Assembly: GCF_008831285.2 (NCBI RefSeq)
Contig: NC_045139.1
Span: 2,364,704 to 2,428,703 of the forward strand
DNA from: Nymphaea colorata
Lineage: Eukaryota > Streptophyta > Magnoliopsida > Nymphaeales > Nymphaeaceae
Reading direction: 5' to 3'
DNA: 64,000 bases
A program made the translations under genes and the position numbers. Positions 7,705-62,228 of this stretch are shown here, piece by piece; the first letter of the stretch is position 1; each line of letters starts with the position of its first letter. Under the pieces are notes generated by a model. That model saw nothing but the letters and a program-made list of their open reading frames with translations, was not told where the DNA came from and did not search any database.

Positions 7705-10700
7705 ATGGCACGGGCCTTTGTTTCACGCTCCACCTGCCTCTCCTTCCTCGCCTTCATCGTCCTCTTCGCACCCATCCACTTCATTTTCGAAGTCCTTCCT
7801 CGTTTCTACTCACCGGAAAAGGTGGTCTCCTCCATCTGCGGCAGCACCCCTTCTTCCGGCCTCTTGTCCTATCTCGACAACCTCGACGATGCCCTCAACC
7901 TTCTAGGCAACCTGATGGAGAACTCCTCCTTCGGCGTCGCCCAGTTCGGTCACGGCCCTGGCGCCGTCTACGTCCTCGCGCAGTGCGCCGGCTACCTCGA
8001 CCGCGTCGGCTGCTTTTCGTGCCATGAGAAGAGCCGCAGCTTCCTTTGGTCCTCCTGCCATCCTCCCGTCGGCCGGTTTTTCCTCGACAGCTGCTTCCTC
8101 CGCGCAGACAGCTACCGGTTCTTCAACGAGACGGTCTCGGCGGGTGACGCGAGCTCCTGCGGCGGCACCAGGTTGGACTCCGGGCTCGGCGAGTTCGTCC
8201 GCGGGAAGGTCACCGGCGTGGTGAACCGGGCCGTGCAGGGTGGCGGGTATGCGTTCGAGTCTGGGCAGTCGTCCGAAGGGGGAACGATATTCGTGATGGC
8301 GCAGTGCTGGAGGAGCCTGGACGAGGCGGGGTGCCGCGAGTGCCTCGCGGGAGCTGTGGCGAAGGCTGACGGCTGCATTCCGTCGACGGAGTTCAGGGTG
8401 ACGAGCGCCGGTTGCGTCTTGCGGTATTCTAGTTCGGACTTCTCGAAGCAGGACGTCTTGTTGTCCCGGGCCTGGCTCCAAGTGCAATACAGTAAGTAAG
8501 TAAGGCCTGTGTCTGCTGGCTGGCCATGACTGGATTCTGAGAGAAGGATATTACTCTAGTTTGCTTCGTCATAACCTAGATTGTAGGATGAATTTGAGTC
8601 GTCATGGCAAAGATTGAACTTTGTGGAATAATTTGTCAGAAAAAGCAAAGTGTATATCAACAAATAAATGTGACTTGTTTGTTTCGGGATTATAGATGTT
8701 GGAGTTCGAGTGAAATTTTCTCTATTTACTAGAAAGTGGTAGGCTATGTATCGTACTGGTAATATAGCAGAACACTGCTCTTTTGTGCTTTCGTGGAAAG
8801 GTTTTCTCTAACTTGTTATTTCTATGATGCAGTTGAAAACATGTTCGCCTCGGTTGCTTTGTTCTTCTTCCTCTTTCTCTACATCGTCGCACTGGCTCTA
8901 CTGGGCAAACACCTCTATGTGACTTGCTGTCGTAAAACAATTAAGTGGGTGAGCAAAGGGAAAGGTGAGAGGATCACACCTGAATAATGAAATAGGGAGG
9001 CCATTTAGTTTGTTGACTATTGTTTTGGTTCTGTAACAATTGGACTTTTGTGTATTTTGCAGGCAATGCAATGTCACAAGGAATTGATCTATCTATTGTC
9101 GCAAAGGACTTGATGTTCAAACAGTCCGTGCTTGTGAAAGCAACCGACTCATTCAGCAAAGCAAACAAACTTGGTCAAGGAGGATTTGGTGATGTTTACA
9201 AGGTGAGGTTCTCTCAGTCAAAAATGCAAAGCTTTAATTGCTGGAACTTTTAATCATGCCAATTAACTAAGTCTGTGTCCAAATTGGTTTAAACTTTAAA
9301 TGACTTTGGTAAGGTTCGGAACTACTGGTTGTTTGGTGTTTGACAAACATACTGGCTTCAATTTTAGCCTGAATTTAACTATTGCATTCTTACAGAATTT
9401 TGTTCCGCTGATGTACTCCCTTGCATGCTAAATCAGGGACGCTTGCCTGATGGGAGAGAAGTTGCAGTAAAAAGACTTTTTGTAAGGGCAAATGGTCGAG
9501 GTCAGGAAATTTACAATGAAATAAGCATTATAAGTCGTGCCCAACACAAGAACCTTGTTAGCTTCCTGGGATACAGCCTTTCTGGTGATGAGAGCCTTCT
9601 TGTCTATGAATTCCTTCCCAACACAAGCCTCGACAGAATACTTTTTGGTATGCATTATAAAATGCTTCATCGCATGTAATTAGTCCCTTATGCCTTATCT
9701 CGATGTGTTCTTTTGTTTTGTTTCTTGTGGACTCCTTTGTTCTCTGATTATGCCTTCACTATCTGGTTTTTATCCGTACAAATAGTTTCGAGGAACTAAA
9801 TCACTAGTTCCTGTTGAGATTGTCTTTGGTGCAAAATCCTTGATACCAAGACTTATGACTCTAGGTGCCTAGATGTCACTAGCTCGTTGTTCATGACCAC
9901 CTACATGTAAAAACATTGACATGGCAGCTCCGATGAGCTTGGCTTTGCGCTTTATACACTCGAGTGCTTGAAAAAAATCACAAAATGAAGTGATTGTGTA
10001 ATGATTTTCTTAGATAACACTATTCGTTATTCAATTATCAGATTAGTTGTTTTGCCACATCTGTCTTTACCTACGTTTGTGGAATTTGATCTGCAGATAC
10101 AGAGAAGAAAAAAGAGCTAACCTGGAAGAAGAGGCAGGAGATAGTCCTCGGTACAGCTGAAGGACTAGAATACCTCCATAAAAGATGTGAATATAAGATA
10201 ATTCATAGGGACATAAAGGCAAGCAATATTTTGTTGGATGAAAATCTAAGGCCCAAGATAGCAGATTTTGGCTTAGCACGCCTCTTCTCTTCTGATAATT
10301 CTCATATCAGCACTTCAATTGCTGGAACACTGTAAGGAGTTTTTCTTTGTTTTGTTTTCTGTTAAATTAAACAACTTCTGCAATAGGATCTCTAAGATTG
10401 GATTGCGTTCAGTGCAATAAAATTTGTTAAACCTGGTTAGCTTCATTTTCCAGAGGATATATGGCTCCAGAGTACATTGGTCACGGACAATTATCAGAGA
10501 AAGTTGATGTTTACAGCTTTGGAGTTCTTGTGCTAGAAATTATTAGTGGTACAAGAAACAACAGCTTTGACAGGCTAGATGGCGATACTTTAGTTTCAAA
10601 GGTGCGTTCATTACTATCAATCTGCATATAATCATTTTTTCTTCACATAAATTTTAGTTTAGATCTTTTTCAAATGTCAGAAAACTAACTGTGGATCTTG

Positions 10701-16261: not shown

Positions 16262-19138
16262 TCAGAGATCAAATGGAGCTGGATGCGGTGGGGGAGGGAT
16301 GGCGCAATTTCCATCAGTAAGCATCTTCACTACTTTGGACATTGGTGGACGGAGTTCATCTGATGCTTGAGCACAAACAAGTCCAATGTTAAGCACACGA
16401 AGTGCATCCCGTTTCGGAAACTTTCCCCTTAGCTTTGGATCCACGCATTCAGCTAGATTGTCCGACAGATAAAAGCTCCAAATCTGACAAGAAAGCTCAC
16501 CTTTAGTTATGAACTACATAATAACAAGAATCGCAGTCTCAAAAGTAAAATATGAAATGTTCCATTTCAAAGTTAATCAAGCTTAGAATATGAATGTTAC
16601 CGTCTGCAGAGAACACCCGACGTTCCGAAGGAAAGGAGCGGTTCCTTTCCCAGTTACTATATCAATTATAAGCATCCCAAAGCTGTAAATGTCTGCCTTT
16701 TCTGTTGAATTTCCACGGATATGACGCTCTGGGGCCAGGTATCCCCTACCAAAATGAAATCAATAAGTATCTTAAGTATTCATTAATTTCATTCACCAAA
16801 TAAGTTGGTCTATGTACATGTTCTTGGAATAAGTCGGTCTATGTACTCCTAGATCCATCTGAATGAAAGACCAGGGACATTCAAAACACATTAGTATTTT
16901 ATCTATTATTGTTTCTGATCTGACACAGTGGGACAGAAAATTTCTATGGTTCAATAACTTCTGCCCATGGATTCTAACATTTACTAGACAAGCCAACTAC
17001 TTTGAAGCAAGAAAGCTTACAGATTTCTGCCATCAGCAGTACCAACACGAGTGCCACCTTCTTGGAAGAATCTAGCAAGACCAAAATCTGCAACTTTCGC
17101 TGTGAAGTTCTCATCAAGAAGTATGTTCCTCTGTTTAATGTCTCCATGTATGATTGATTCCTGATGAAGATAAGCCAAACCTTTTGCAGTTCCCACGATG
17201 ATATTTTTCCTCATATCCCAACTTAGTATTGGTTTGTTGGCAATACCTGTGTTGAAATGAATTTAGGAATGTTAATGAAAAAAATATTTAGATATTAAAC
17301 AAAATTGCAATGAAATAGAGTGTAACCTAGGAAATGATCAAGGCTTTCGTTGGGAACATATTCATAAACAAGGAGAATTTCTGAGCCTTTAATACTGTAA
17401 CCCAGCAATTGGACAAGATTTGGATGTTGAATGCCACTGATCAAATCGACATCTTTCAAGACTGCATCCATTGATTGCATTGGATTGTTAGATAGTCGCT
17501 TTATGGCTACAGTCGTCCCATCTGATAGTACAGCCTGTTAAAAATGCACTTCCATTAATTCATGAGTCACTACATTCATAAATAAAAATTATGATGACAG
17601 AGATTGACCTTGTATGCAGATCCTGATTCTCCTAGGCCCAGTTTATTGGACTGATCAAAGTAATTGGTGGCACTTTCAAGTTCTTCATACTCAAAGTTAG
17701 GTATAGATTCATTGGCAGATGCACTCGGCCCCCCATTGTGCTTTTCTGCAATAAAAATAAACTTCAGCAAGAAAGGACCAGTCAGAGAAGAGAGTTCATG
17801 AAAGAAATCTGACCTTTTCGTTTCTCTTTGACATTTTTTGCTGCAAAGCATGAAGCTCCAAGTACAGAAACGCCCAGAATGGAAAGCGGCACAGAAACCA
17901 TAGTTGCAGGTTTTTGAGAACCTGATAAGATCCAAGTTCAGAAGTCACAATATATATATATATATATAACGAAAAAAAAAACAAAAGGTCTACGATCAAG
18001 GTACAGATAGAACTAATAAGATAATTATTCAAGGGCTGATAGGGAAAAGGAACAAGAATGACAAGCCTTTGTCTGTAGCAAGAAAATAAAAAGAGCTAAA
18101 AAATGGCTCAGAGTACTCTGTAACTTGTAGTTTTGCCAATGCTGCATAGCTTATTTTGTTTTTCCATATCTCTTAATAATCTGGATATCGTTATTAGTAT
18201 TCAAACTTTTATACTGGAAAACGTTGTAGATAACAAAAACAGTCTGAAGTATTTGCTTTCTTTCGTTGAGTTCATTTGCAGAATCCCTTTTTGAATAATA
18301 ATTTCCAAGTCTATATTGTAGAAATTTCTGAAGCTATTCTATAGATACGTGGTTTAGACACATAACTATTGCTACACCTTCAAAATGCTTATACTCGAGG
18401 ATCAAGGCACTGATACTATGTTACATCTGAATAGAGAATCAAGAAGAATGTGATTTTCAAACCAAACCAAGCACGTACAACAGAATGTAAGAGGATATGG
18501 TATCAATTAGCTTGAGATATAACGATCACTTTCACGATCTGACAAGTGCCGATGGTGATAAACGGAATTACTAAAACTAACATAATTCAACTGTGGCCAA
18601 GGGACCCTAAACTACCACCGTCACTGCTAGAAGAATGAAAGCGTAAACTACAATGAGAAGAAACAATTATACAATTTTGTATCAGGATAAAAGAAAAGGA
18701 GTTTGATAGTCTACCTCCAGAGGATCCACTTGTGTAAGATGAACCATTGTAGAACTTGTGATTTGAATACTTCAAGTAACAACCTGACCTCATAACCCTG
18801 CCTTCCGTAGCAGGAAGGCAAGAACTGATGGAGGAAACTGCTGCATCCAGGCAAGTCTTGCAGGAGCTCACATTCAATGTCTTCGAACAATGGCCGATTG
18901 CATAAACCGTTGAATTCCCTCCTCTAACAGAGCCACCCCAAAACCCATTGTTGAAAACTACCTGAGCACTCAAATTTCCCATAACTCTTACTGCATTAAC
19001 GACAAAATGATTTTGGTTGCTCTTGTTGGCTGCACTAACAGTACCACACACCAAGTCTACTTGGGTGCTTCGTGGGTCAGAGAGTACCAGAGGGAAAAAG
19101 AAGGCTGAGAAGAGGAAGATAAGCATTGAAGACGCCAT
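16262..19138 (-). CDS. Cysteine-rich receptor-like kinase with a single DUF26 domain (CRK-B)
   Basis: Seven minus-strand exons join in frame: 19138-18715, 17921-17814, 17745-17609, 17534-17327, 17246-17021, 16745-16601 and 16483-16262. They give 489 aa. A signal peptide ([20 protein letters not shown]) is followed by the start of a first DUF26 (VCGTVSA), which jumps straight into a second complete one ([13 protein letters not shown]). Compared with CRK-C, exactly 109 codons of the first repeat are missing. Then come a transmembrane exon and a kinase with [19 protein letters not shown] and GYLAPE. The catalytic-loop HRD reads HGD ([10 protein letters not shown]) and the activation segment is diverged ([11 protein letters not shown]), so activity may be reduced. 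No stop or frameshift is seen, so I call it a gene and not a pseudogene. It could be a decoy or a weak non-RD kinase. Confidence 0.85.
17950..17969. repeat. (TA)n microsatellite in CRK-B intron 1
   Basis: Short TA run in the 0.8-kb first intron of CRK-B, about 30 bp upstream (in gene orientation) of the transmembrane exon. Confidence 0.8.
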
Positions 19139-19666
19139 GAATGTGGGAGAGATAGAGAGAGAGGTCTAGCTGCGTGGTTCAGCTCAGTATAAGCTTACAT
19201 CTACCACAAAAAAGCTCACTGTGATAATGTTGTGAGGGGAAGAACACCAATATATACATGTGCATGCGTATCGTCAGGATATTGACCATCATAACTACCG
19301 TTTAGATTATGGATTGACAATCTCAAGGTTCTGCTCTTGTGTTCAAGGAAATTGCTTTTTCTTTCTTTATCATTTTCAGCAGTTCGTTCATTTGTTTGGA
19401 CGGTAGATTGACGTAGTTATTGGAGAATCTGTTTCTACCATCTTCATTTTTTCTTCTTATTTTCATTTTCCATATTAGCAAGATACAAGGTCCTTTGAAA
19501 TATGTTGGAGATCGAGCTCCACTTACCATTTTCACATCCCTTGAATCTGCTCTCCGTGAAGCGAAGCAAGTTATATGCACCACTCGTACATGTACATGGT
19601 TTTAGTATACTGAAGGCACGAAATGACCATAATAGCCCTAACCCATCACAAAGAAAGATACCCCTT

Positions 19667-27437: not shown

Positions 27438-31031
<3,594 letters not shown>

Positions 31032-31099
31032 GACAGAGAGAGAGAGAGAGAGTTGCAGAGGAAATGGAAATGGAGAGGTGGGAGATGGGGAGGTGAATA

Positions 31100-32249
31100 A
31101 CGGAGGTAGCAAATATAGTAGTGCTGTAGGAGTTGACCGTTGCGTGCCGCCGAAATTTTTTTCAAGTATTCAAAGAATCGAAGGTCAAAGGCTTAAGCAA
31201 TATGAACTACTGTGGCCGTTTTTCTGAAAAACTCAAAATGCAAAATTAAGGATATCTCTAACTTTTAAGCATAGTTAAAAACTTGAACAATAAAAGATAT
31301 TTGATTTATTTTATTTTAATATAAATTTTCGTTTCTCCTTTTTATTCCTTCATAAAATTTATGTTAGCATTTTCAGAATGGAGTCACTGTCCTTCATAAA
31401 ATTTATGTAAAATGAAAATAATTTATACCGGTGCATGTCCATATTATTGCGTCAATGAAGTTCTGTTCACTTTTTCTGCAAGGTTGGACTTAAAAGACAT
31501 TAAATAAATTTAAGAGTTCATTTGAAACTCCTGCAAAGTCAGCTTCTCTGAAGTAACGAACAAGAAAAATTTCGTTAACATACTTGTACTTTGCTATAAT
31601 CCAAATACAGACCTCGCAGTTCTAGTTATCTTCAATCCGGCCTTGCTTTAGCTAACAACTGCTAAAAATGAACCCACAAGCTAAATGATAACAGATACAA
31701 ATTACAATCACATACAATTTATACTTTAAGCTAAAAATTTTTCTCTTCCACTTCCGTACAATAATAATAGTTATAATCGTCATTTATTTTGTTATTGCTC
31801 ATATTCTAGGTAGAACTAAGCAGCAATGGTAGTCGTGGAACTTCATTTGGTAGTTATCAGTATCATTGAGTCCTATAATAAGAAAATCAGAAACATAATG
31901 GCCCGTGTCTAATATTATAGACAAAATGCAGTCTCTTACATGAAATTTTTCTTCATTGAATGTAATAAAATATAAATGTCAAAATACAAGTCCGTGTGTT
32001 AAGGAAAGAATGATATTTTTCGTCAGTACGCGCTCTTCAAACCTTATTTCTGCATTTCAAAGGAAATAAACGTTTTAGAGGTATAAACTAGGTTGCAAAC
32101 TCGCATACGAGTCCGCTCATATCTCTTAACTATTTTATTAAAAAAAGAAAAGTACGGTTTGTCTTATAAAATATAAAAGTTCCACTCGAGATCATTTTTT
32201 CTATTTGATGGGGAGCTATCAATGGTAGAAACGCCTCATATATTTTGAC
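31100..32249. other. Intergenic, no gene recognised
   Basis: AT-rich sequence upstream of CRK-C. It probably contains the CRK-C promoter, but I can point to no specific element. An AG run at 31037-31052 lies immediately upstream of the CRK-C start. Confidence 0.5.
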
Positions 32250-48805: not shown

Positions 48806-51800
48806 CAACTGGAGAGGATTTTCGAAGTCATTGTCAAGCGGATTCTACGTGAACTACCATCACCGCTAATGCTTCCCGAGAACCTGGTTGGCCTTGCTCA
48901 CCACATGTTGGAATTGTTGACATTGAGGCTGACTATGTTCGAATTATTGGAATAGCTGGCATAGGCGGCTTGGGCAAGACTGTTAGGAACAACACAGAAT
49001 AAACTCTCCTCTCGCACTCTCAAGAGGAGGTTAGAAGCAACAAGGAAGAAGACAACGATTTACGTGGTTCGGAGCAATAATCTCCTATGTCCACGGTCGC
49101 ACAGATCTCACACACTCAAGCGGCGGCCATCCTCTAAACATAAGGATTAGGGCAAACCCGCATTGTACAAAATGACATATATGCCCTTACATAAAGACCC
49201 GCGGTATTGCAAATGAGTGTCCAGTATGGATGGCCAACAACCCTCGCGGTGGCCGTCTCCTACAACTATCATGCCTCCTCTTTCATTTCAGATGTCAGAG
49301 AATTGTCAAGAGAATACAATGGATTCATCAGACTTCAAAGGCATCTCGTCCAGGACGTCTTAAAAGATGAGAGCGCGCACATAAGTGAAGTGAATGAGGG
49401 GATCAGCATCATCAGGAGAAGAGTTCAGGGAAAGAGGGTTCTTATTGTTCTCGACGACGTTGATCGCACCGAACAACTTCAGGCACTGGCTTGTCGGCGG
49501 GAGTGGTTTACGGGAGGGAGCCGGATAATTATTACAACAAGAGATGAACGTGTTCTACGTCTCAGTGCAGTCCGAGAACATGAGATTTGCCGGCTTGGAG
49601 AATTGAATTCAAAGGATGCACTTCAACTGTTCTACTATCATGCCTTTCGGGGGAATACACGCTCCTATGCGAGCAGGTTGCGTCCAATTGTGGGGGCCTG
49701 CCTTTGGCGATCCGGGTGCTTGCGTCACTTTTCTCTGACTTGGAAAGTCTTGAAGAGTGGAAATTCATGTTGGAGAAGCTGAATGTGTCTCCAGGCAGCT
49801 CTCTTTTCGACAAATTGAAGGTAAGCTTTGATGCACTTGATATTAACGAGAAGGAGATTTTTTTGGATGTTGCGAGCTTTTTCCTTGGAAATGGCAAAGA
49901 TAATGCATGTTACATGTGGGAGGACCGCGGCCTTTTTCCATCAGCAGCAACTAGAGTCCTTGTCGATAAATCCCTCGTTCAGATCAACGATCAAAAGGAA
50001 TTTGAAATGCATCAGCTAATTCAAGGAATGGGAAAGGACATCATTCGACGAGAAAGTCCCTTGAAGCCTTGAGGACGGAGCCGGTTGTCAGATGCTGATG
50101 ACATATTGGACATCTTGCAAACCAGAAAAGTAAGTGCTAACTTTACATGCTCCTCGGATTCAAAATTTTGCTACTTGAACTTGATCTCGCTTGTATCTGC
50201 AACTCGAGTTTAGGATAATTATTAATTGATAATGGGTTTCAAGTTCCCTTTTTTTTTCGAACTTGAATCACAAACCTTATATGTTCATTTACTTGGGAAT
50301 CTTATGAGTTGGTCAGTCAAGGTTTCAAATTCATCCACTTCATTTAGGACACTGAAATGATCCAAATTTCTGATGGGTTAAAAATGGTTTCAGCTATACA
50401 TGAATGTGGAACACGAATTTCTGGAATGTATGTGACGCGTCTTCCTATTTATAGGATATGTTTTTAGAACCTGCAGATTGTTTGCAGCCTCTACAATTGA
50501 GCTCTGCTTGTTGAGGCGAATCCTGACCAGCTCACTCAAATGTGCATGACTCTGCATGCTTTCTAAGGATAAAATAGCGCTAAAATGAACTTAGGTTTTA
50601 TTATGTGATACTAAAAGGTTAATCATTGTTTTTAATTTCAGGGAACTGAAAAAGTCAAAGGTCTTTCTCTCAACATGGAAAATTTTGAAGAGGAGGAGCG
50701 GCCATGTTTGGAGGCGGAGGCTTTTGGTGACATGCCAAATCTGGAACTTCTGCGACTCAATTCTGTTGAGATCGGTGGCGATTATCGGCATTTCCCTAAA
50801 GGCCTAAGATGGTTTGAGTGGAAAGGATGCTCATTGAATTCACTTCCGGATGAACTTGATCTTCAGAACTTAGTCACCCTTGACCTATCAAACAGCATGA
50901 TCAAGGAGCTTTCGTTAAAGAAGGTAAACCATAGGAAAAACTGAGCCCTAGCTTTTATTTATTTTGAAGGAAGAAATAAAATGACATTTACGTAATGGTG
51001 GACAGGTTCACGGTCGTTTACTAGTTCTCAATCTCAGCGGCTGCAATTGTTTATCGGCGATTCCTGAGTTTTCGCATTTTCCGTGGCTGAAGAAATTGGC
51101 ACTTGATGGATGTGGAAGCTTGACCCACCTTCACGATCCTATTTGGTTCGCAAAGAATTTGATTCACTTGAGTCTGAGAGAGTGCAGCATGCTTAAGCAT
51201 CTTCACGAGAACCTTGGTGAATTGCAGTCACTTGAAACTCTTAGACTCAAAGGTTGCTCCAGAGTCCAGACTTTCCTATTTGCCAAACTCCATAGGTGAT
51301 ATTGGAACTCTAAAGGAGCTTGAACTGGATTCCACCAAGATAACAACGCTACCATCTTCCATCGGGTGCTTGGAGAACCTAAGATTGTTGTCTCTGAAAG
51401 GATGCAACTATCTCACGGCATTGCCTGATAATATTGGCAGTTTGATATCGTTGACGCAACTTGTCCTTGATTTCACCCGCTTAAGTGCGTTGCCCGACTC
51501 AATGGGGTCCTTAGCTGAACTCAGATTGTTCTCACTGGAAGGGTGCACGAATCTGGTGGCCTTGCCTGATAGTATTGGCGGTTTGATATCATTGATGGAT
51601 CTCGTCCTTGATTTCACTCTCATAAAGGAGATTCCTCACTCCGTCGCCAACCTGAAGAAACTTCAACGGGTATCTCTTATAGTGTGCTTGAAAGAACTGC
51701 ACGATTCAGTCAGGGAAATGGATTGGTTTGCATCACTGGCAGGTAAAATTTTGATCGCCGATTCCAAAACAAAGCCACCCGCTGATTCTCCAGTATCTTC

Positions 51801-51876
51801 AAGTTCGTTCTCACAGAAGCGCCGCCAAAAGAAAAGAAGAAGATTCTCTAAAAAAAGAATATCAGAACCTGAACAA
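48806..51876 (+). pseudogene. TIR-class NLR pseudogene, NB-ARC and LRR only (NLR-1)
   Basis: Intracellular immune receptor relic. NB-ARC parts: linker (VIVKRILREL), P-loop GIAGIGGLGKT, kinase-2 VLIVLDDVDR (Asp after LDDV is TIR-class), GSRIIITTRD, GGLPLAI, EIFLDVASFF and an MHD-like MHQ. LRR exons: 50642-50923 and 51006 to about 51720 (LPNSIGDIGTLKEL, ALPDSIGGLISL). The lesions are a 1-bp frameshift at about 48918, a TE insertion right after the P-loop (48982-49239), a frameshift or small deletion at about 49695, a stop TGA at 50070-50072 and a frameshift at about 51275. No TIR exon is found upstream. The frame after the last shift stays open through a polybasic linker into the TIR of NLR-2. 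It is clearly nonfunctional as an NLR on its own. Confidence 0.88.
48982..49239 (+). mobile_element. TE insertion (TRIM/LTR-like) directly after the NLR-1 P-loop
   Basis: The insert of about 258 bp begins TGTTAGGAAC and carries the plant LTR-type words GATTTACGTGGTTCGG and CCTATGTCCACGG. It separates GGLGKT from TLAVAV, residues that are contiguous in every NB-ARC. No clean target duplication is visible. Confidence 0.65.
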
Positions 51877-52175
51877 ATGACTTCATTTTCATCATCATTG
51901 CAAGAACCACTGGAACATCCTCAAGTGAGCAAGCTAGGTGCGTCGTCATCCCATCTGCCGAAACAATTCAAGTATGACGTATACTTGAGCTTTAAACGTG
52001 AAGATGCTGGCAATGCCTTTGCAATCAATCTCTCCCGAGCCCTCGAGCAGCACGGTGTGGCTGCGTTCCTAGACAATGGGACATTAAGCAAGCAAGACAA
52101 GCACTCAGACTTGCTGGATGCAATCGCCAATTCGACTGTGGCAATTCCAATTTTAACAGATTCATATGTCAAATC

Positions 52176-52726
52176 TGAAGAAAATAGAGGCGATATCAGT
52201 AAGGAAACTCTTGATCAAGAAAGAAAGGAGGAAAACAGAGGAAGTCAGCGTTACAATGCCAAAGAGGAAAACAGAGGAGTGAATGAAGAAACTCCAGCCA
52301 GCCGTGACAATGAAAACAGTAACGGCTGTAATCACTATAATGCCAACAAGGAAACACCAGCCCATCATGACGCTGGAGACAGTAACGATTATAATCGTTA
52401 CCATGGAAAGAAGGAAACATTGTCATCTGGCCAACCGTGTGAAGAAAGAAATACAAAGACAATGGCTGGCCAGGCAGCTCTCAAACAGAGAGACACAACT
52501 CAACAAAGAAATAACGACTGTAAATCAGATACAGTTTCCTTCTGTAAAGATTGATATAGATCTTGTAATTCAGGAAATAATGATGCTTGTAATTATATTA
52601 TAAATAGAAGAAAGAACCAGGCATATCGTCACCAAGAACGATAGCTGCCCTTGTGGATGTAGGTGTGATTTTACACCGAACCACGTTATATCAGGCGTTA
52701 GTCCCTTAAATCTCTGTTTTTCTTTA
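52176..52726 (+). repeat. Left LTR of the copia element (551 bp)
   Basis: Starts TGAAGAAAAT and ends TTCTTTA, that is TG..TA and not the usual TG..CA. It differs from the right LTR only at 52238 (G versus A) and 52254 (C versus T). Confidence 0.98.
52599..52606 (+). promoter_or_regulatory. TATA box of the copia LTR
   Basis: TATAAATA about 120 bp before the LTR end, preceded by AT-rich sequence. A likely core promoter for genomic RNA. The same word is in the right LTR at 57382-57389, where it could drive outward transcription into NLR-2. Confidence 0.6.
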
Positions 52727-52738
52727 TGGTATCAGAGC
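52727..52738 (+). other. Primer binding site (initiator tRNA-Met)
   Basis: TGGTATCAGAGC, the standard plant copia primer site complementary to the 3' end of initiator tRNA-Met, lies directly after the left LTR. Confidence 0.97.
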
Positions 52739-52749
52739 AGGACAACCCT

Positions 52750-55700
52750 ATGGCGCAGAACAATTCTTCCTCAAGCATGGCGTCAGCTCCAAGCAAATAC
52801 CCTTACCCATACAATCTGAACGTTGCCAACTTTGTGTCGATCAAGCTCAATCAAGGAAATTTTCTGCTTTGGCAAACACAGATGATGGGGCTCATCGAGA
52901 GCCAAGATATGACTGGTTTCCTAGACGGAGAATACCAGCCGCCCGCACAGTTCCTCACTGCCTCTGCTGAAAATACAGTCACAGGACTGAATCCCGACTA
53001 TCTTGCTTGGCGAAAGTCGGATCGTCTTCTTAAAGGATGGATCACTGGGACTCTTGCAGAGGAAATCCTAGGCATTATCATCGGACAACAAACTGCCATG
53101 GAGGTATGGACTACTCTAACTCAGCATTTCGCTAATAAATCTAAGGAGCGAGAAATGTTTCTTATGCAAAAACTTCAAATGCATAAGAAAGGGAACTCGT
53201 CCATTGATGAATATGTTCGCAGCTTCAAGAAAATTTCCGATGAGCTCGCTGCTATTGGAAAGCCTATTACAGACGAAACTAAAGTCTTTTGGCTCCTCAC
53301 TGGCCTCGGAAAAGATTATGAATCTTTTCGAACAACCTTATTGACAACCATGCTGAAACCACCAGCACCCTCATATCTTGAGGTAGTTGCTCTTCTTCAA
53401 AATCATGAAACTATGAGGACGTTAGAAGAAGATTCTTCTAGCACCCACGTTACTTTTTTCAGCCACCGTCAACCTAATCAAAGGTACAAGGGAAGCAAAA
53501 ATCAAACCTTCAATTCTAAAGGACGTGGGTTTGTGCAAGCTAGCCAAAGTGGTTCATGGAACTCAGCCAACAAAAACAAAGATGGCAATATGAACCGATC
53601 AGCTCCAGAAAAAGGCATAATATGCCAAATATGCAGCAAAAGAAATCACACCGCTCTCAACTGCTGGCATAGGTTCAATCAAGTGTTTCAGTCACAAAAG
53701 GCCCCACAAGCTTTAACCATCACGAAAGCATCTGAAAATCAAGATCAACAATGGTTTCCTGACACCGGTGCATCGGCTCATGTGACGTCTAACGGAGGTA
53801 TACTCAGTTCTCTATCTAAATATTATGGGACAGATAAAATTATGGTTGGAAATGGAGAAAAATTGGATATTACTCATATAGGGCAGGCTACTATAGCTAA
53901 TGGGCAACAAAAACTGGTTCTTGATAATGTTTTAGTCGTCCCCAAGATCAAGAAAAACCTTATCTCTGTCAGTCAGTTAACGTCCGATCTTCCTTATGTT
54001 TTTGAATTTTCAACTAATGAATTTGCTGTGAAGGAAAAGATGACCAACAAAGTGATAATTACGGGGAAGAGGCATGAAGATCTTTATGCGGTTGAAAATA
54101 AGAGAGAAGGCAGCGACCAGATCCATGAAGTTCATTTCTCTACAAGATTTCAAGCAGCAACTAAAGAAGTTTGGCACCAACGTCTAGGTCACATTCATCG
54201 TGAGGTAGTAAATTTTCTTGCAAATAAAAAGGCCATTCGTGTGACAGGCCATAGTTCTTTAAACAGCATATGTTCTAGTTGTCAAATGGCAAAAATGTGT
54301 CATCTTCCTTTCTTACCAGTGGATGAGCATTGTGAAAAATTTCTTGATAAAGTTCATTGTGATTTATGGGGACCAGCCCCTGTTATTTCAGTTGCTAAAT
54401 TTCGATTCTATGCTGTTTTCATTGATGAAGCCACCCGGTTCACTTGGTTCTATCCCTTGCGTTACAAATCTGAGTTATACCAAGTGTTTACGATTTTCCA
54501 TAAATATGTTGAAAATCAGTTTGATACAAAAATTAAGATATTTCAAAGTGATGAAGGAGGTGAATTCAATAGTCTCAAACTTGCAGCGTATTTACAAGAA
54601 CATGGTATACATCATCACAAAGCTTGTCCTAAAACGCCACCCCAAAATGGAATGGCAGAACGGCGTCACAGGACCATTGTCGAACTCGGTTTGGCAATGA
54701 AGTTCAATGCTAATATACCAGCTCGATATTGGGTTGAAACATTTTCCACTGCAGTTTGGCTTATTAATAGACTACCCACTCCTACATTGAAGATGAAATC
54801 TCCTTTTGAATTGGTTTTTGGAAAAAGTCCGTCTTACTCTTGCTTGCGGACATTTGGGACTAGATGTTTTCCATATCTCAGAGATTACGCTCTCAACAAA
54901 CTTGAACCAAGATCCTTACCTTGTGTATTTTTGGGTTATAGTAATACACATAAGGGATACAAGTGCTTATATCCACCTACAGGGAAAATATATATTTCCC
55001 GACATGTTGTCTTTGATGAAAGTATCTTCCCTTATAAACAGCCTGGAGCACTCTTTTCTTCTACATCAACCAGCAACAGTGGGGTGACTTACAGTGATTG
55101 GATTGCATTAGATCAATGTTCAGATGGTAACAATGATAATTCATATCAAGTGGTTGATCATCATCTCTTGCATGATGGTTCATCAGACACTGCTTTTGTC
55201 CAAGAGCCGCCTAGCAGACACGACAATGTTTCAACACAAGAGACACATGATATAGGTGCAAATGATCTACTCTCACCAAACAATGAGGCTGGAAGTCAAC
55301 CACCTACAGAACAACGGCCGTTCCAAGGAACCTCCAATATTCATTCAATGGTAACTCGGGCTAAGGTTGGTACCTTAAAACCAAACCCTAAGTATTTTTT
55401 GGCCTTAACGGTACCACTTGAACCCAAAACTGTTAAGCAGGCCTTTAAAGATCCAGGTTGGGTCGCTGCTATGAAAGAAGAGTTACGTGCCTTGGAACAA
55501 TGCCACACTTGGACGTTGGTACCTCGCCAATCAGGTATGAACGTTGTTTCAACCCGATGGGTCTTTAAAACCAAACTCAAAAGTGATGGAACGGTTGAGC
55601 GACTCAAAGCTAGACTGGTTGCGCGCGGGTTCAACCAAGTGCCTGGCATTGACTTTCTAGAAACCTTCTCTCCTGTTATAAAGCCAGCAACTATTAGAAT

Positions 55701-56904
55701 TGTGCTTACTATAGCTCTTTCTCACAACTGGGATATTCGACAAATGGATGTCAAAAATGCCTTCTTGCATGGTGATTTGGATCAAACTGTATTTATTGAA
55801 CAACCACCAGGATTTCTTGATGATCAAAAACCAAATTATGTGTGCCAGTTACACAAAGCTCTCTATGGTTTACGTCAAGCTCCAAGAGCATGGTACGATC
55901 GGTTTGGAACTTATCTTCTCTCAAAAGGTTTCTTCTCCAGCATCTCTGATTCCTCGCTATTTATCTATAAAGAAGGTCGTGGTGTCATACTTTTATTATT
56001 GTATGTCGACGATATCATATTAACTGGCAGCAACCCTATGCTACTTGAAGACTTCATTCGAGATATTAGCAAGGAGTTTTCTATGAAGGATCTTGGTTAT
56101 CTTCATCACTTTCTTGGCATAGAAGTGATCAAATTTTCTGGAGGGCTCTTCCTCAATCAAAAGCGATATGCCTATAGCCTGCTGGAAAGAGCAAATATGA
56201 CATCGTGCAAACCGGCCGTCACTCCCTTGGTTCAAAATTACAAAAATCTGGTTGATGACATACCTTTTTCCGATCCGACACTCTTTCGAAGCTTGGTGGG
56301 AGGCCTCCAATACCTCACGTTCACGCGGCCTGACATCTCCTTCGCTGTGAACTTTATCAGCCAATACATGCAATCACCCATGGTCAGTCACTTTCAACTA
56401 CTTAAAAGACTCATTCGATATGTTAGTGGTTCCATTGATATCGGATGTCATATACATTCGCAAGCGCAACTCCAACTTCATGCCTTTTCTGACTCTGACT
56501 GGGCGGGATGCCAGGCAACACGTCGCTCAACTACTGGTTTTGTTACGTTTATTGGCACTAATCCTATTTCATGGACAGCAAAGAAGCAACCTACAGTGGC
56601 CAGATCTACCACCGAGGCTGAGTACCGATCAATGGCATCTGCTGCTGCCGAATTAACCTGGATTACATATATCCTCAAAGACATCGGACTCTATCTCCCA
56701 GAACCACCGGTCCTCTACTGTGACAACATGTCTGCACTTCAAGTCTCTATCAAACCGGTTTTTCACTCTCGCATGAAGCATGTCGAATTAGATTATCATT
56801 TTCTAAGGGAAAAGGTTGCACTTGGTCTTCTTACGACTCAATTTGTTCCAACGACCCAACAGGTGGCCGACATTTTCACCAAGGCTCTCTCGAACCACTT
56901 TTGA
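52750..56904 (+). CDS. Copia gag-pol polyprotein
   Basis: Single uninterrupted frame of about 1,384 aa encoding all proteins needed for copia transposition. In order: a gag domain (KLNQGNFLLWQTQMMGL), a CCHC zinc knuckle (CQICSKRNHTALNC, about 53623), an aspartic protease (PDTGAS, about 53758), an integrase with its HHCC zinc domain and catalytic core (FQSDEGGEF; PQNGMAERRHR), a reverse transcriptase (RLKARLVARGF, MDVKNAFLHGDL, YVDD at 56002-56013) and RNase H (SDSDWAGC, STTEAEY). The Met at 52750 is preferred, since the earlier in-frame Met at 52726 overlaps the primer site. No stop or frameshift. Order PR-IN-RT-RH defines Ty1/copia. An Ale/Retrofit-like lineage is possible but unproven. Probably autonomous. 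Confidence 0.97.
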   Translation: MAQNNSSSSMASAPSKYPYPYNLNVANFVSIKLNQGNFLLWQTQMMGLIESQDMTGFLDGEYQPPAQFLTASAENTVTGLNPDYLAWRKSDRLLKGWITGTLAEEILGIIIGQQTAMEVWTTLTQHFANKSKEREMFLMQKLQMHKKGNSSIDEYVRSFKKISDELAAIGKPITDETKVFWLLTGLGKDYESFRTTLLTTMLKPPAPSYLEVVALLQNHETMRTLEEDSSSTHVTFFSHRQPNQRYKGSKNQTFNSKGRGFVQASQSGSWNSANKNKDGNMNRSAPEKGIICQICSKRNHTALNCWHRFNQVFQSQKAPQALTITKASENQDQQWFPDTGASAHVTSNGGILSSLSKYYGTDKIMVGNGEKLDITHIGQATIANGQQKLVLDNVLVVPKIKKNLISVSQLTSDLPYVFEFSTNEFAVKEKMTNKVIITGKRHEDLYAVENKREGSDQIHEVHFSTRFQAATKEVWHQRLGHIHREVVNFLANKKAIRVTGHSSLNSICSSCQMAKMCHLPFLPVDEHCEKFLDKVHCDLWGPAPVISVAKFRFYAVFIDEATRFTWFYPLRYKSELYQVFTIFHKYVENQFDTKIKIFQSDEGGEFNSLKLAAYLQEHGIHHHKACPKTPPQNGMAERRHRTIVELGLAMKFNANIPARYWVETFSTAVWLINRLPTPTLKMKSPFELVFGKSPSYSCLRTFGTRCFPYLRDYALNKLEPRSLPCVFLGYSNTHKGYKCLYPPTGKIYISRHVVFDESIFPYKQPGALFSSTSTSNSGVTYSDWIALDQCSDGNNDNSYQVVDHHLLHDGSSDTAFVQEPPSRHDNVSTQETHDIGANDLLSPNNEAGSQPPTEQRPFQGTSNIHSMVTRAKVGTLKPNPKYFLALTVPLEPKTVKQAFKDPGWVAAMKEELRALEQCHTWTLVPRQSGMNVVSTRWVFKTKLKSDGTVERLKARLVARGFNQVPGIDFLETFSPVIKPATIRIVLTIALSHNWDIRQMDVKNAFLHGDLDQTVFIEQPPGFLDDQKPNYVCQLHKALYGLRQAPRAWYDRFGTYLLSKGFFSSISDSSLFIYKEGRGVILLLLYVDDIILTGSNPMLLEDFIRDISKEFSMKDLGYLHHFLGIEVIKFSGGLFLNQKRYAYSLLERANMTSCKPAVTPLVQNYKNLVDDIPFSDPTLFRSLVGGLQYLTFTRPDISFAVNFISQYMQSPMVSHFQLLKRLIRYVSGSIDIGCHIHSQAQLQLHAFSDSDWAGCQATRRSTTGFVTFIGTNPISWTAKKQPTVARSTTEAEYRSMASAAAELTWITYILKDIGLYLPEPPVLYCDNMSALQVSIKPVFHSRMKHVELDYHFLREKVALGLLTTQFVPTTQQVADIFTKALSNHF

Positions 56905-56958
56905 ATTTTTAAGAGGCAAACTAGCGCTTTCCATACTGCCGCCTAGCTTGAGGGAGGC

Positions 56959-57509
56959 TGAAGAAAATAGAGGCGATATCAGTAAGGAAACTCTTGATCA
57001 AGAAAGAAAGGAGGAAAACAAAGGAAGTCAGCGTTATAATGCCAAAGAGGAAAACAGAGGAGTGAATGAAGAAACTCCAGCCAGCCGTGACAATGAAAAC
57101 AGTAACGGCTGTAATCACTATAATGCCAACAAGGAAACACCAGCCCATCATGACGCTGGAGACAGTAACGATTATAATCGTTACCATGGAAAGAAGGAAA
57201 CATTGTCATCTGGCCAACCGTGTGAAGAAAGAAATACAAAGACAATGGCTGGCCAGGCAGCTCTCAAACAGAGAGACACAACTCAACAAAGAAATAACGA
57301 CTGTAAATCAGATACAGTTTCCTTCTGTAAAGATTGATATAGATCTTGTAATTCAGGAAATAATGATGCTTGTAATTATATTATAAATAGAAGAAAGAAC
57401 CAGGCATATCGTCACCAAGAACGATAGCTGCCCTTGTGGATGTAGGTGTGATTTTACACCGAACCACGTTATATCAGGCGTTAGTCCCTTAAATCTCTGT
57501 TTTTCTTTA
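56959..57509 (+). repeat. Right LTR of the copia element (551 bp)
   Basis: 549 of 551 positions equal the left LTR. It is preceded by a purine-rich tract (TTGAGGGAGG) that serves as the plus-strand primer. Confidence 0.98.
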
Positions 57510-57742
57510 AAATCAAGATGGTGCCTTCTAGAGGTCGCCAATGCCGTAGAATGCTGCAGGATAGTCCTTCCTGTGTTCATCTATCATGACCCGATACATG
57601 TAAAGGAGCAGAGCGGACCTCTAGCGCTTGTCTTCCAATATCATAAGGAGAACGCCCCGCCGGAAGAACTTGATCACTGGAGAGAAGCACTGTCGGAAGT
57701 GGGAAATGCTTCAGGATACCATCTTCATCATGACGCAGATGG

Positions 57743-57762
57743 GTAAGGCCATTGCCTGTCTC

Positions 57763-59076: not shown

Positions 59077-59304
59077 AGATGAGGTCCGGCTGGTTCAACT
59101 AGTCGTCAAAAGGGTCTTAAGTTTACTAAATCGGACTCAATGCCATCCTTTTCCATACACCATCGGGATGAAAGCACGGATAGATGATTGCATGAAGCTG
59201 TTGAACATTGAGTCAGGCGATGTTCGCAGGGTTGGAATTGTTGGTGTTGGTGGAATTGGTAAGACTACCCTTGCAAAGGCTCTTTTCAGTAGAATATCCA
59301 ACTG

Positions 59305-59318
59305 CTACGAACTACGAA
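59305..59318 (+). repeat. 7-bp tandem duplication causing a frameshift
   Basis: CTACGAA occurs twice head to tail (59305-59311 and 59312-59318) in the NB-ARC exon of NLR-2. The P-loop is read in one frame before it. The conserved YEASCFISN stretch is read in the next frame after it. Confidence 0.93.
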
Positions 59319-60507
59319 GCCAGCTGCTTCATTTCCAACTGGAGGACAAAGGCGATGGAACAACCCAATGCACTTGTCTTTCTGCAAAATGAACTGATTC
59401 GTGGCATATTCAAGGACAAAGTTAAACCAGTGAACGATGTGGATGAAGGGATGGATGTGATCAGGAGCAAAATCCAAAGCAAAAGACTTCTTCTTATTCT
59501 GGATGATGCTGATCAAACAAATCTTATAAGTGCATGGGCTGGAGAACGGTATTCCTTTCATCCCGGTAGCAGAATTATCATTGTGTCCAAAGATGTTGAA
59601 GTACTTGGGAAGAACAAGGTCTATGAGCGGGAGATCTGCCAGTTACAGAAGCTAAGTGAGGACGAATTTGTGGAGCTCTTCAACTTTTATGCCTTCGGGA
59701 GAGATCAACCCCATAAGCAATACCAAGAGATGTCAAAGAGAATTGCATCGTCTGTGGGTGGTCTGCCCTTAAATCTTAAAGTGTTTGGGTCATTCTTCTC
59801 AGATTGCAGGAATATAAGCAGATGGGAAGAGGTGCTAGAAAAGTTGACCTTCCATGGTAACGCACAGGAGGACTCAATTCAGAGCACCAATTTGGGCCAG
59901 AATGTAGGACCAATTGCTGAACAAGCCTTCGGCTCTACCTCTTCTCCAAGCAGAGACGGAGAGTCAAGGCAAAATTTGGAGACACCCATGCGACCATCCA
60001 TGGCTCCTGACTCTTCTTCAAACAGGGATGCAAACACAGGCAGGACATTGGACCCAACTGGAGGCCCGACCTCCGATGGAGATTATGACTCGGATCGAAA
60101 TCCAGATGATCCAGATCGGCTTGAAAAAATTATTGACAAACTGGATGCAACTGCTAGGGAGATATTTCTTGATATAGCATGTTTCTTTATTGGAATGAAT
60201 AGAGAAAACGCAATGCATATCTGGAGAGGTTGTGAATTTTCAGGAGGTACAAACCCTGACAAGGCAATTCAAGAGCTGCTAAGAGTGCAGCTTGTGAGTA
60301 TAAATATAAAAGATGATACATTTTATATGGACGAAAAGACAAAAGAGATGGGAAGGAAAATGGTCGAAAGGGAGGATGAGGAGCTTGGAAGACGTAGCAG
60401 ATTGTGGGAGCATGAGAAGAGCTTGCATGTACTCAACAATAAGAAAAGTAAGGCCCAAATTATAGTGCATCTTTCCAATTTAAATTGTTTGCGTAGATTG
60501 TATTAAG

Positions 60508-60640: not shown

Positions 60641-62228
60641 CACAATGCACAATTATCCTCAAGTTTAGATAAAATTACATATATTTTAGGCTTTACAGTT
60701 ATTATGCGAGATGGATCATCGATAGTTTTTTGGTAACAAATATCATTATTTTCTGCTCACATAAATCTATTTCATGATCAATAGGCTATGCAGTGGATGA
60801 AATCCCTTACTTGTTCTTCTTCTGCAAAAGAGGTGAGATGTGCTTCTAACTGCGTCACTGTGAGATCATATACACGTGACCGCTTTCTAATGTGGAACTT
60901 ATATTTCAACGAGCAGGATTTTGAGAACTTGAAAGTTCTTGAGCTAAAGAGCAGCGAGAACCAAACTGCATTTCCTGATTTGTCTAGCTTCCCATGCCTA
61001 GTGAAATTGACACTTGATGACTGCTGTCGCTTGGCCGAAGTTCGCACATCTATTGAGCGTCAGCGGGAGTTGACTTACTTGAAAATTAGGAACTGTTCCA
61101 TCTTACAGAGTTTGCCTGCCAATTTTTCATCTTTGCTTTCTTTTAAGATTCTTGACCTTTCTGGGTGCTCCAGCCTTTCAGATTTGCCGGGTGAAGTTGG
61201 AAACTTACAGTCACTGATGGAGCTTCTACTTTCTGGAACTTCTGTAAAAGTTATACCTGATTCCATAAATCAGCTAAGGAAACTGGAGCGACTGTTGTTG
61301 GATAATTGCAAGGCACTTACTAAATTGCCTGGGTCCCTGGAAGGATTGAAGTCCCTGCAAGAACTAAATGCCAAGAAGTGCACATTACTGGCTACACTGC
61401 CGACTTCAATTGTTAATGTTTCAAATTTAACCCATCTGCTTCTAGATGGCACAAAGATCGAAGAGCTTCCGTCTTCGTTGACCAAGCTTCTTTGTTACGA
61501 TTGCACTGCTTTAGAGAGATTAGAAGACGTTTCGAACTTGGAGAATTTAATCGAGCTCAATCTCACTGGCTGCACAAGACTTGTTGAGATCAATGGCATA
61601 GACAGTTTGGCAGCCCTGAGACGCTTTCACATGAGCGGATGCAGGAGGCTTAGTAATGCTTCCAGAAACCAACTTGTCCAGGTTTGTGATTTTTCTCTCT
61701 CATATGACATTGTTCTGCAGTTCACCTGGGTATTTACTCATGACCAACGATTTGTCACAGAAAATTTTTGAACACCTTGAAAGTTTCTCCATCCTGGGAG
61801 GCGAGATTCCCAACGCGTTCACCAATCGACAGCTATCCTATGAAGTGCCAGTCTCGCTTGACGTCCGGGAGGGAATGGAATTGCTTCTATGCCTGGTGGT
61901 TGCCGTCGAAGAGCAAGCAGGATGCTGGGAACCAAACATTAAAGTCGAAACAGAGGCAGAAGGGGAGAAGATTGTGAAGTTGCCGGGAGTTGCGTTATCC
62001 AGCAAAGACGACAACCTTTGCTTGTGGCATTACAAGGAGGCTGACCGGGTGTTCCCTCGTGGAAACGTGAAGATCACACTAGTGCACCATGAGTGGATAA
62101 AAGACGAGGTGAGGAATGGTGGCCTTTGTGAGCCCGAAAGGGAAGTAGAAGCAGCAAACCAGGATGGGCAACAAGCTTCTGTCTTTGAATGCATCGCACG
62201 CTGTTGCAGGACAAGCAATACAGCTTGA

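Follow-up and report, generated by a model that had tools for sequence, protein, structure and literature searches.

Crr1a of Brassica rapa is a close precedent for the locus described here. According to its report (PMC3559844), exon 1 of this TNL gene, which codes for the TIR, harbours a copia-like element or its solo LTR, comparable to the TIR exon in our window (the whole 64,000-nucleotide stretch of Nymphaea colorata DNA that was analysed, C2:2364704-2428703 of a 408-Mb assembly in 783 contigs). This exon-1 insertion was missing from 18 of the 24 non-resistant cultivars tested. A further Ty1-copia element with a target site duplication (TSD) is present in exon 4 of Crr1a, and RACE places the 3' end of a transcript in the first LTR of that element. 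The two loci differ in that a functional insertion-free resistance allele has been proven for Crr1a, whereas the gene in the window carries unrelated lesions and was examined in one assembly. The Arabidopsis pairs RPP7/COPIA-R7 and RPP4/COPIA4 also combine a copia element with an NLR gene and the 5' LTR or the element serves as a polyadenylation site (PMC7529245, PMC8116057); unlike the window element, however, COPIA-R7 lies in an intron and RPP7 continues to be produced at full length. In Arabidopsis, H2A.Z-guided integration of copia elements into exons of responsive genes is established; one of the insertions described there hit ADR1, an NLR gene, in its 5' UTR.

Two other systems are relevant. 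Tandem NLRs of the TNLTNL type (PMC3782705, PMC6115920) resemble the gene in the window by a second TIR-NB-LRR unit fused behind the LRR, but the present gene is broken, and tblastn found no first TIR in the part of the window that precedes the first NB-ARC. In CRM chromoviruses, as in the siblings of the window element, the pol frame continues past the polypurine tract (PPT) into the 3' LTR; yet CRM elements are Ty3/gypsy and their extension is an integrase chromodomain or CR motif (PMC3605345), whereas the present family is copia and has an uncharacterised pol C-terminal tail.

Based on the observed structure, TSD and age of the element and on the reading frames and lesions around it, we consider it highly probable that the window contains a young, sense-oriented Ty1/copia element which integrated into a TIR exon, and that the host is a tandem NB-LRR/TIR-NB-LRR gene in decay within a TNL cluster. 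No complete TIR could then be made, because of a stop codon and probably polyadenylation signals in the element, and an element-free allele would also be without an intact full-length receptor because of the other lesions. The gene content of the window is plant-like. Up to 100 kb on each side, tblastn detected several NB-ARC places, the N-terminal half of the TIR at seven places and its C-terminal half at eight. A second haplotype was not seen, 211 bases of the right flank being single-copy across the 783 contigs of this one assembly. Three Stress-antifung (DUF26, PF01657) frames occur earlier in the window (7705-8499, 18587-19165 and 30093-31169).

Structure and age of the element

52171-52175, forward strand: left target site duplication, AAATC
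52176-57509, forward strand: Ty1/copia element, LTR ends TGAAGA..TCTTTA
52176-52726, forward strand: 5' LTR, 551 bp, with TATAAA at 52599
52177-52551, forward strand: 125-codon open frame of the 5' LTR, entered in phase by the TIR frame
52727-52738, forward strand: PBS-like TGGTATCAGAGC, directly after the left LTR, judged by eye
52750-56904, forward strand: copia polyprotein frame from ATG, with gag, integrase and RT by Pfam; TGA at 56902-56904
56948-56958, forward strand: PPT, judged by eye
56959-57509, forward strand: 3' LTR, 551 bp, with the pol-tail frame at 56960-57334
57510-57514, forward strand: right target site duplication, AAATC

An earlier note on this DNA had proposed that a young copia element was inserted precisely into a TIR exon with a perfect 5-bp duplication, and both proposals hold. 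The element belongs to Ty1/copia: the integrase (Pfam rve, residues 563-646) precedes the reverse transcriptase (RVT_2, residues 935-1177) in a single polyprotein. Two LTRs and a 5-bp TSD are accompanied by a PBS and a PPT, the latter two recognized by eye, and TG..TA termini are typical for some copia elements. It may resemble Ale/Retrofit or another named copia lineage.

The two LTRs are identical at 549 of 551 sites and both differences are transitions (K2P 0.0036). With substitution rates of 7e-9 and 1.3e-8 per site per year, this corresponds to an insertion age of 0.26 and 0.14 My, respectively, with a Poisson range of 0.017-0.94 My over both rates. In an ungapped comparison of 11 LTRs from the window element and five siblings (omitting the 5' LTR of sibling E, which has indels), both differences are private to the 3' LTR in the window and thus arose after insertion.

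The split TIR exon

51271-52173, forward strand: end of the LRR, basic linker and N-terminal half of the second TIR in one open frame (NL-TNL fusion)
57515-57742, forward strand: C-terminal half of the second TIR exon, with a candidate donor at 57743

When the flanks are joined without the element and one duplicate, they read ...DSYVKSRWCLLEVANAVE... and remain stop-free to the candidate donor GG/GTAAGG (the slash marks the exon end, 57742). This donor agrees in phase 2 with the candidate acceptor GGCAG/AGATGAGG of the next NB-ARC exon (exon start 59077). The continuous frame and the phase match expected in the earlier note are therefore both present, as is the Glu of the WCLxE motif downstream of the insertion point, a residue which we take to be catalytic. 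PF01582 is matched separately by each side, over profile positions 1-68 on the left (E 4.9e-8, within a 332-residue query) and 70-143 on the right (E 5e-12), so that the two matches are adjacent on the profile. The 301 codons on the left were open in none of 2000 dinucleotide shuffles and the 76 codons on the right in 32 of 2000. In an alignment of TIR exons from the surrounding cluster, six of the seven local places are ungapped across the insertion point; the seventh (T5) has no open frame by the filter used and was omitted. In two of these exons (T1 and T7), the sequence shows a candidate donor in the same phase and at the same place as in the window exon. The linker between the LRR and the second TIR (51760-51900) is strongly basic (KRRQKKRRRFSKKR) and appears NLS-like by eye.

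Family copies and a second TIR insertion

The LTR search yielded at least 43 matches (40 of 73 candidates scored). Six full LTR pairs, including that of the window, each have a 5-bp TSD; per 551 sites, the LTRs of a pair differ at two in the window element, none in copy A, one each in B and C, and six in D, while E has six mismatches plus gaps. Copy F consists of one LTR followed by element sequence and copy G is a solo LTR. As to their surroundings, a Stress-antifung (DUF26) frame has its first ATG about 26 bp downstream of E, a Kunitz inhibitor frame follows D at about 0.45 kb, and an exon of an amino-acid transporter is about 1.3 kb away from A. For one frame next to F, Pfam returned nothing.

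Solo LTR G (L033:151-648; C2:3452282-3452779) splits the TIR exon of another gene. The joined site matches PF01582 (E 2.4e-7), and the left flank alone matches local TIR exons up to the junction (best E 1.9e-17); tblastn with the window pieces only did not detect this TIR. G has the same orientation as its TIR and lies 24 bp downstream of the position homologous to the window insertion. With this offset and a different TSD (GTTGC), G is an independent event. The host gene of G is broken as well, since the N-terminal half of its TIR is in two frames.

Such a near-coincidence could mean that the TIR exon is an integration hot spot for this family, for instance through one positioned nucleosome, beyond a random hit in a gene. 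If 100-1000 TIR exons of 500 bp are assumed, one or more further hits would occur by chance with a probability of 0.0009-0.0086 for the seven other close-family sites and of 0.002-0.019 for 16 sites. However, the number of TIR exons behind these figures is an assumption, there are only two events and they were noticed post hoc, and the flanks of the remaining six close-family copies (both sides for A-E, left side for F) showed no TIR when searched with an HMM built from local TIR exons; we regard a hot spot as unlikely. The site of the window insertion agrees with the preference for exons of environment-responsive genes that is known for copia elements.

Among diverged LTRs, 23 right flanks were taken, leaving out three 5' partners of pairs: five run into element sequence (four by script and L087 by eye), ten represent one duplicated locus and eight are distinct. 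NLR queries had no match at E 0.01 in these right flanks (0 of 9 independent sites), but the scan is insensitive and uninformative, because the right flank of G itself was missed both by it and by the local-TIR HMM at E 0.1. One LTR insertion recurs with the same flank in ten copies (L065, L067-L072, L074, L078 and L080), of which seven are on contig C15.

State of the host gene

48981-49193, forward strand: solo-LTR-like insert, 213 bp, in the P-loop of the first NB-ARC; TG..TA ends, TSD AAGAC at 48976-48980 and 49194-49198
49198-50072, forward strand: first NB-ARC plus winged-helix region, with a change of frame at about 49650-49660 and a TGA in frame at 50070-50072
50985-51299, forward strand: first LRR region; frame switch near 51270
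59077-60443, forward strand: second NB-ARC exon, borders by eye; a 7-bp tandem duplication (CTACGAA x2, 59305-59318) shifts the frame
60785-62228, forward strand: second LRR region (Pfam) and a C-terminal part without a Pfam match

TIR, NB-ARC and LRR follow each other in the order of a TNL (PF01582, PF00931, PF23282 and LRR matches, and also ROQ1 and RPP1), but the coding sequence is interrupted by lesions beside the element. In the second NB-ARC, ROQ1 residues 163-240 are matched in one frame and residues 237-411 in the next, and the switch coincides with the CTACGAA tandem at 59305-59318. No complete second copy of the P-loop insert occurs in the window. Since the first NB-ARC, the first LRR region and the second NB-ARC are also broken, the element is one lesion among several. 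The earlier note had foreseen a normal TIR exon in an empty-site allele, and this part stands; a normal gene at the empty site is not supported and was rejected in view of the independent lesions to the left and right of the element, namely the P-loop insert, the frame switches and stop of the first half, and the 7-bp duplication in the second NB-ARC. Any single indel among these lesions may be an assembly error. Between the NB-ARC and winged-helix parts, about 96 in-frame codons (59847-60134) have no Pfam match, and matches to local paralogues run nearly on across them.

A counterpoint to a decaying gene is the LRR-linker-TIR frame, which is clean over its 301 codons although a long-dead pseudogene need not keep such a frame. 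The open TIR exon and linker, together with the young LTRs, might suggest that the copia insertion ended the function of a working gene and that all other lesions came later. We find this improbable: the first half alone contains a nonsense codon and several changes of frame besides the solo-LTR-like insert, whereas rough arithmetic (7e-9 per site per year, about 6 kb of coding sequence, 0.2 My) expects fewer than two such disabling changes. We infer instead that part of the decay of the host gene preceded the insertion.

Host transcripts would read from the LRR and half TIR into the 5' LTR, where they would meet 125 in-frame codons and a stop at 52552-52554. They would probably meet polyadenylation signals of the element too, and would most likely end in the left LTR; AATAAA and ATTAAA are absent from the LTR, and the polyadenylation step therefore rests on analogy. 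The TIR frame enters the 125-codon frame of the LTR in phase, which would suit a product that is still useful, either a truncated regulator or a short protein of LRR and half TIR whose tail is encoded by the LTR. Such a product is hardly credible: a phase match is expected by chance in one case out of three, and the lesions of the first half lie upstream.

Coding potential of the LTR

In all five full siblings (L023, L025, L027, L029 and L031), pol stays open beyond the PPT and extends 125-155 codons into the 3' LTR, an open frame like that of CRM elements. The chromodomain or CR motif of a gypsy element is not part of the likeness: the domain order is that of copia, and the tail of the window copy has no Pfam match. 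We take the tail to lie after RNase H, following the usual copia order. The window copy itself is without the extension, its pol ending before the PPT at 56902-56904 because the frame changed shortly before the LTR. The copy of the tail frame in the 5' LTR of D, which does not follow pol, has a stop after 13 codons. Matches to the end of pol were obtained at 17 places, five siblings and 12 diverged ones (L043, L044, L047 and L049, with no such match, are omitted from this count). Eight of them keep at least 100 codons (the siblings plus L035, L046 and L048), two have a shorter tail (L038 and L045) and seven are broken in or near pol. As seven of the 12 diverged places (L036-L040, L042 and L045) are copies of one duplicated locus, the long tail is kept in three of six independent diverged insertions.

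Chance openness of the LTR frame was rejected: among 5000 shuffles, 125 codons remained open in this particular frame once, and in any of the three frames six times. In plain DNA alignments of five pairs, which are not independent, gap length is divisible by three in 19 of 22 cases (one long gap of at least 108 bases in each of four pairs was set aside as terminal), and the tail frame has no in-frame stops and pN/pS of 0.57-0.74. The +2 frame gave 0.58-0.70 in four of the five pairs, but contains many stops. Protein-guided values over 10 pairs were 0.49-0.77, low values being favoured by construction. Because of the similar values in the +2 frame, pN/pS was not accepted as proof of coding. A copia case of pol extending into the 3' LTR was not found in searches of an open-access library, nor in passages of PMC7264820, on additional ORFs in plant elements, and PMC6317226, a plant element survey; this is weak evidence of novelty.

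It is thus possible, although our judgement leans slightly the other way, that this copia lineage encodes a fast-evolving, hydrophilic pol C-terminal tail of 100-160 residues inside its LTR, with a frame that spans the PPT and, in some copies, the TATA box as well. Promoter and coding sequence would then coincide in the LTR, a copia parallel to CRM. Such a tail might, speculatively, bear on the choice of integration sites, TIR exons included.

Implications

The insertion in the window is a further example of copia elements breaking NLR genes, and such insertions were already known; the putative LTR-coded tail and the paired TIR insertions are more interesting than the insertion itself. A statement that an empty site would be a normal gene needs checking over the whole gene. 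With two insertions so close to each other in TIR position, nucleosome-guided integration in immune genes could be put to the test and, if the tail is real and general, the LTRs of this copia lineage would have to be read as coding plus promoter sequence.
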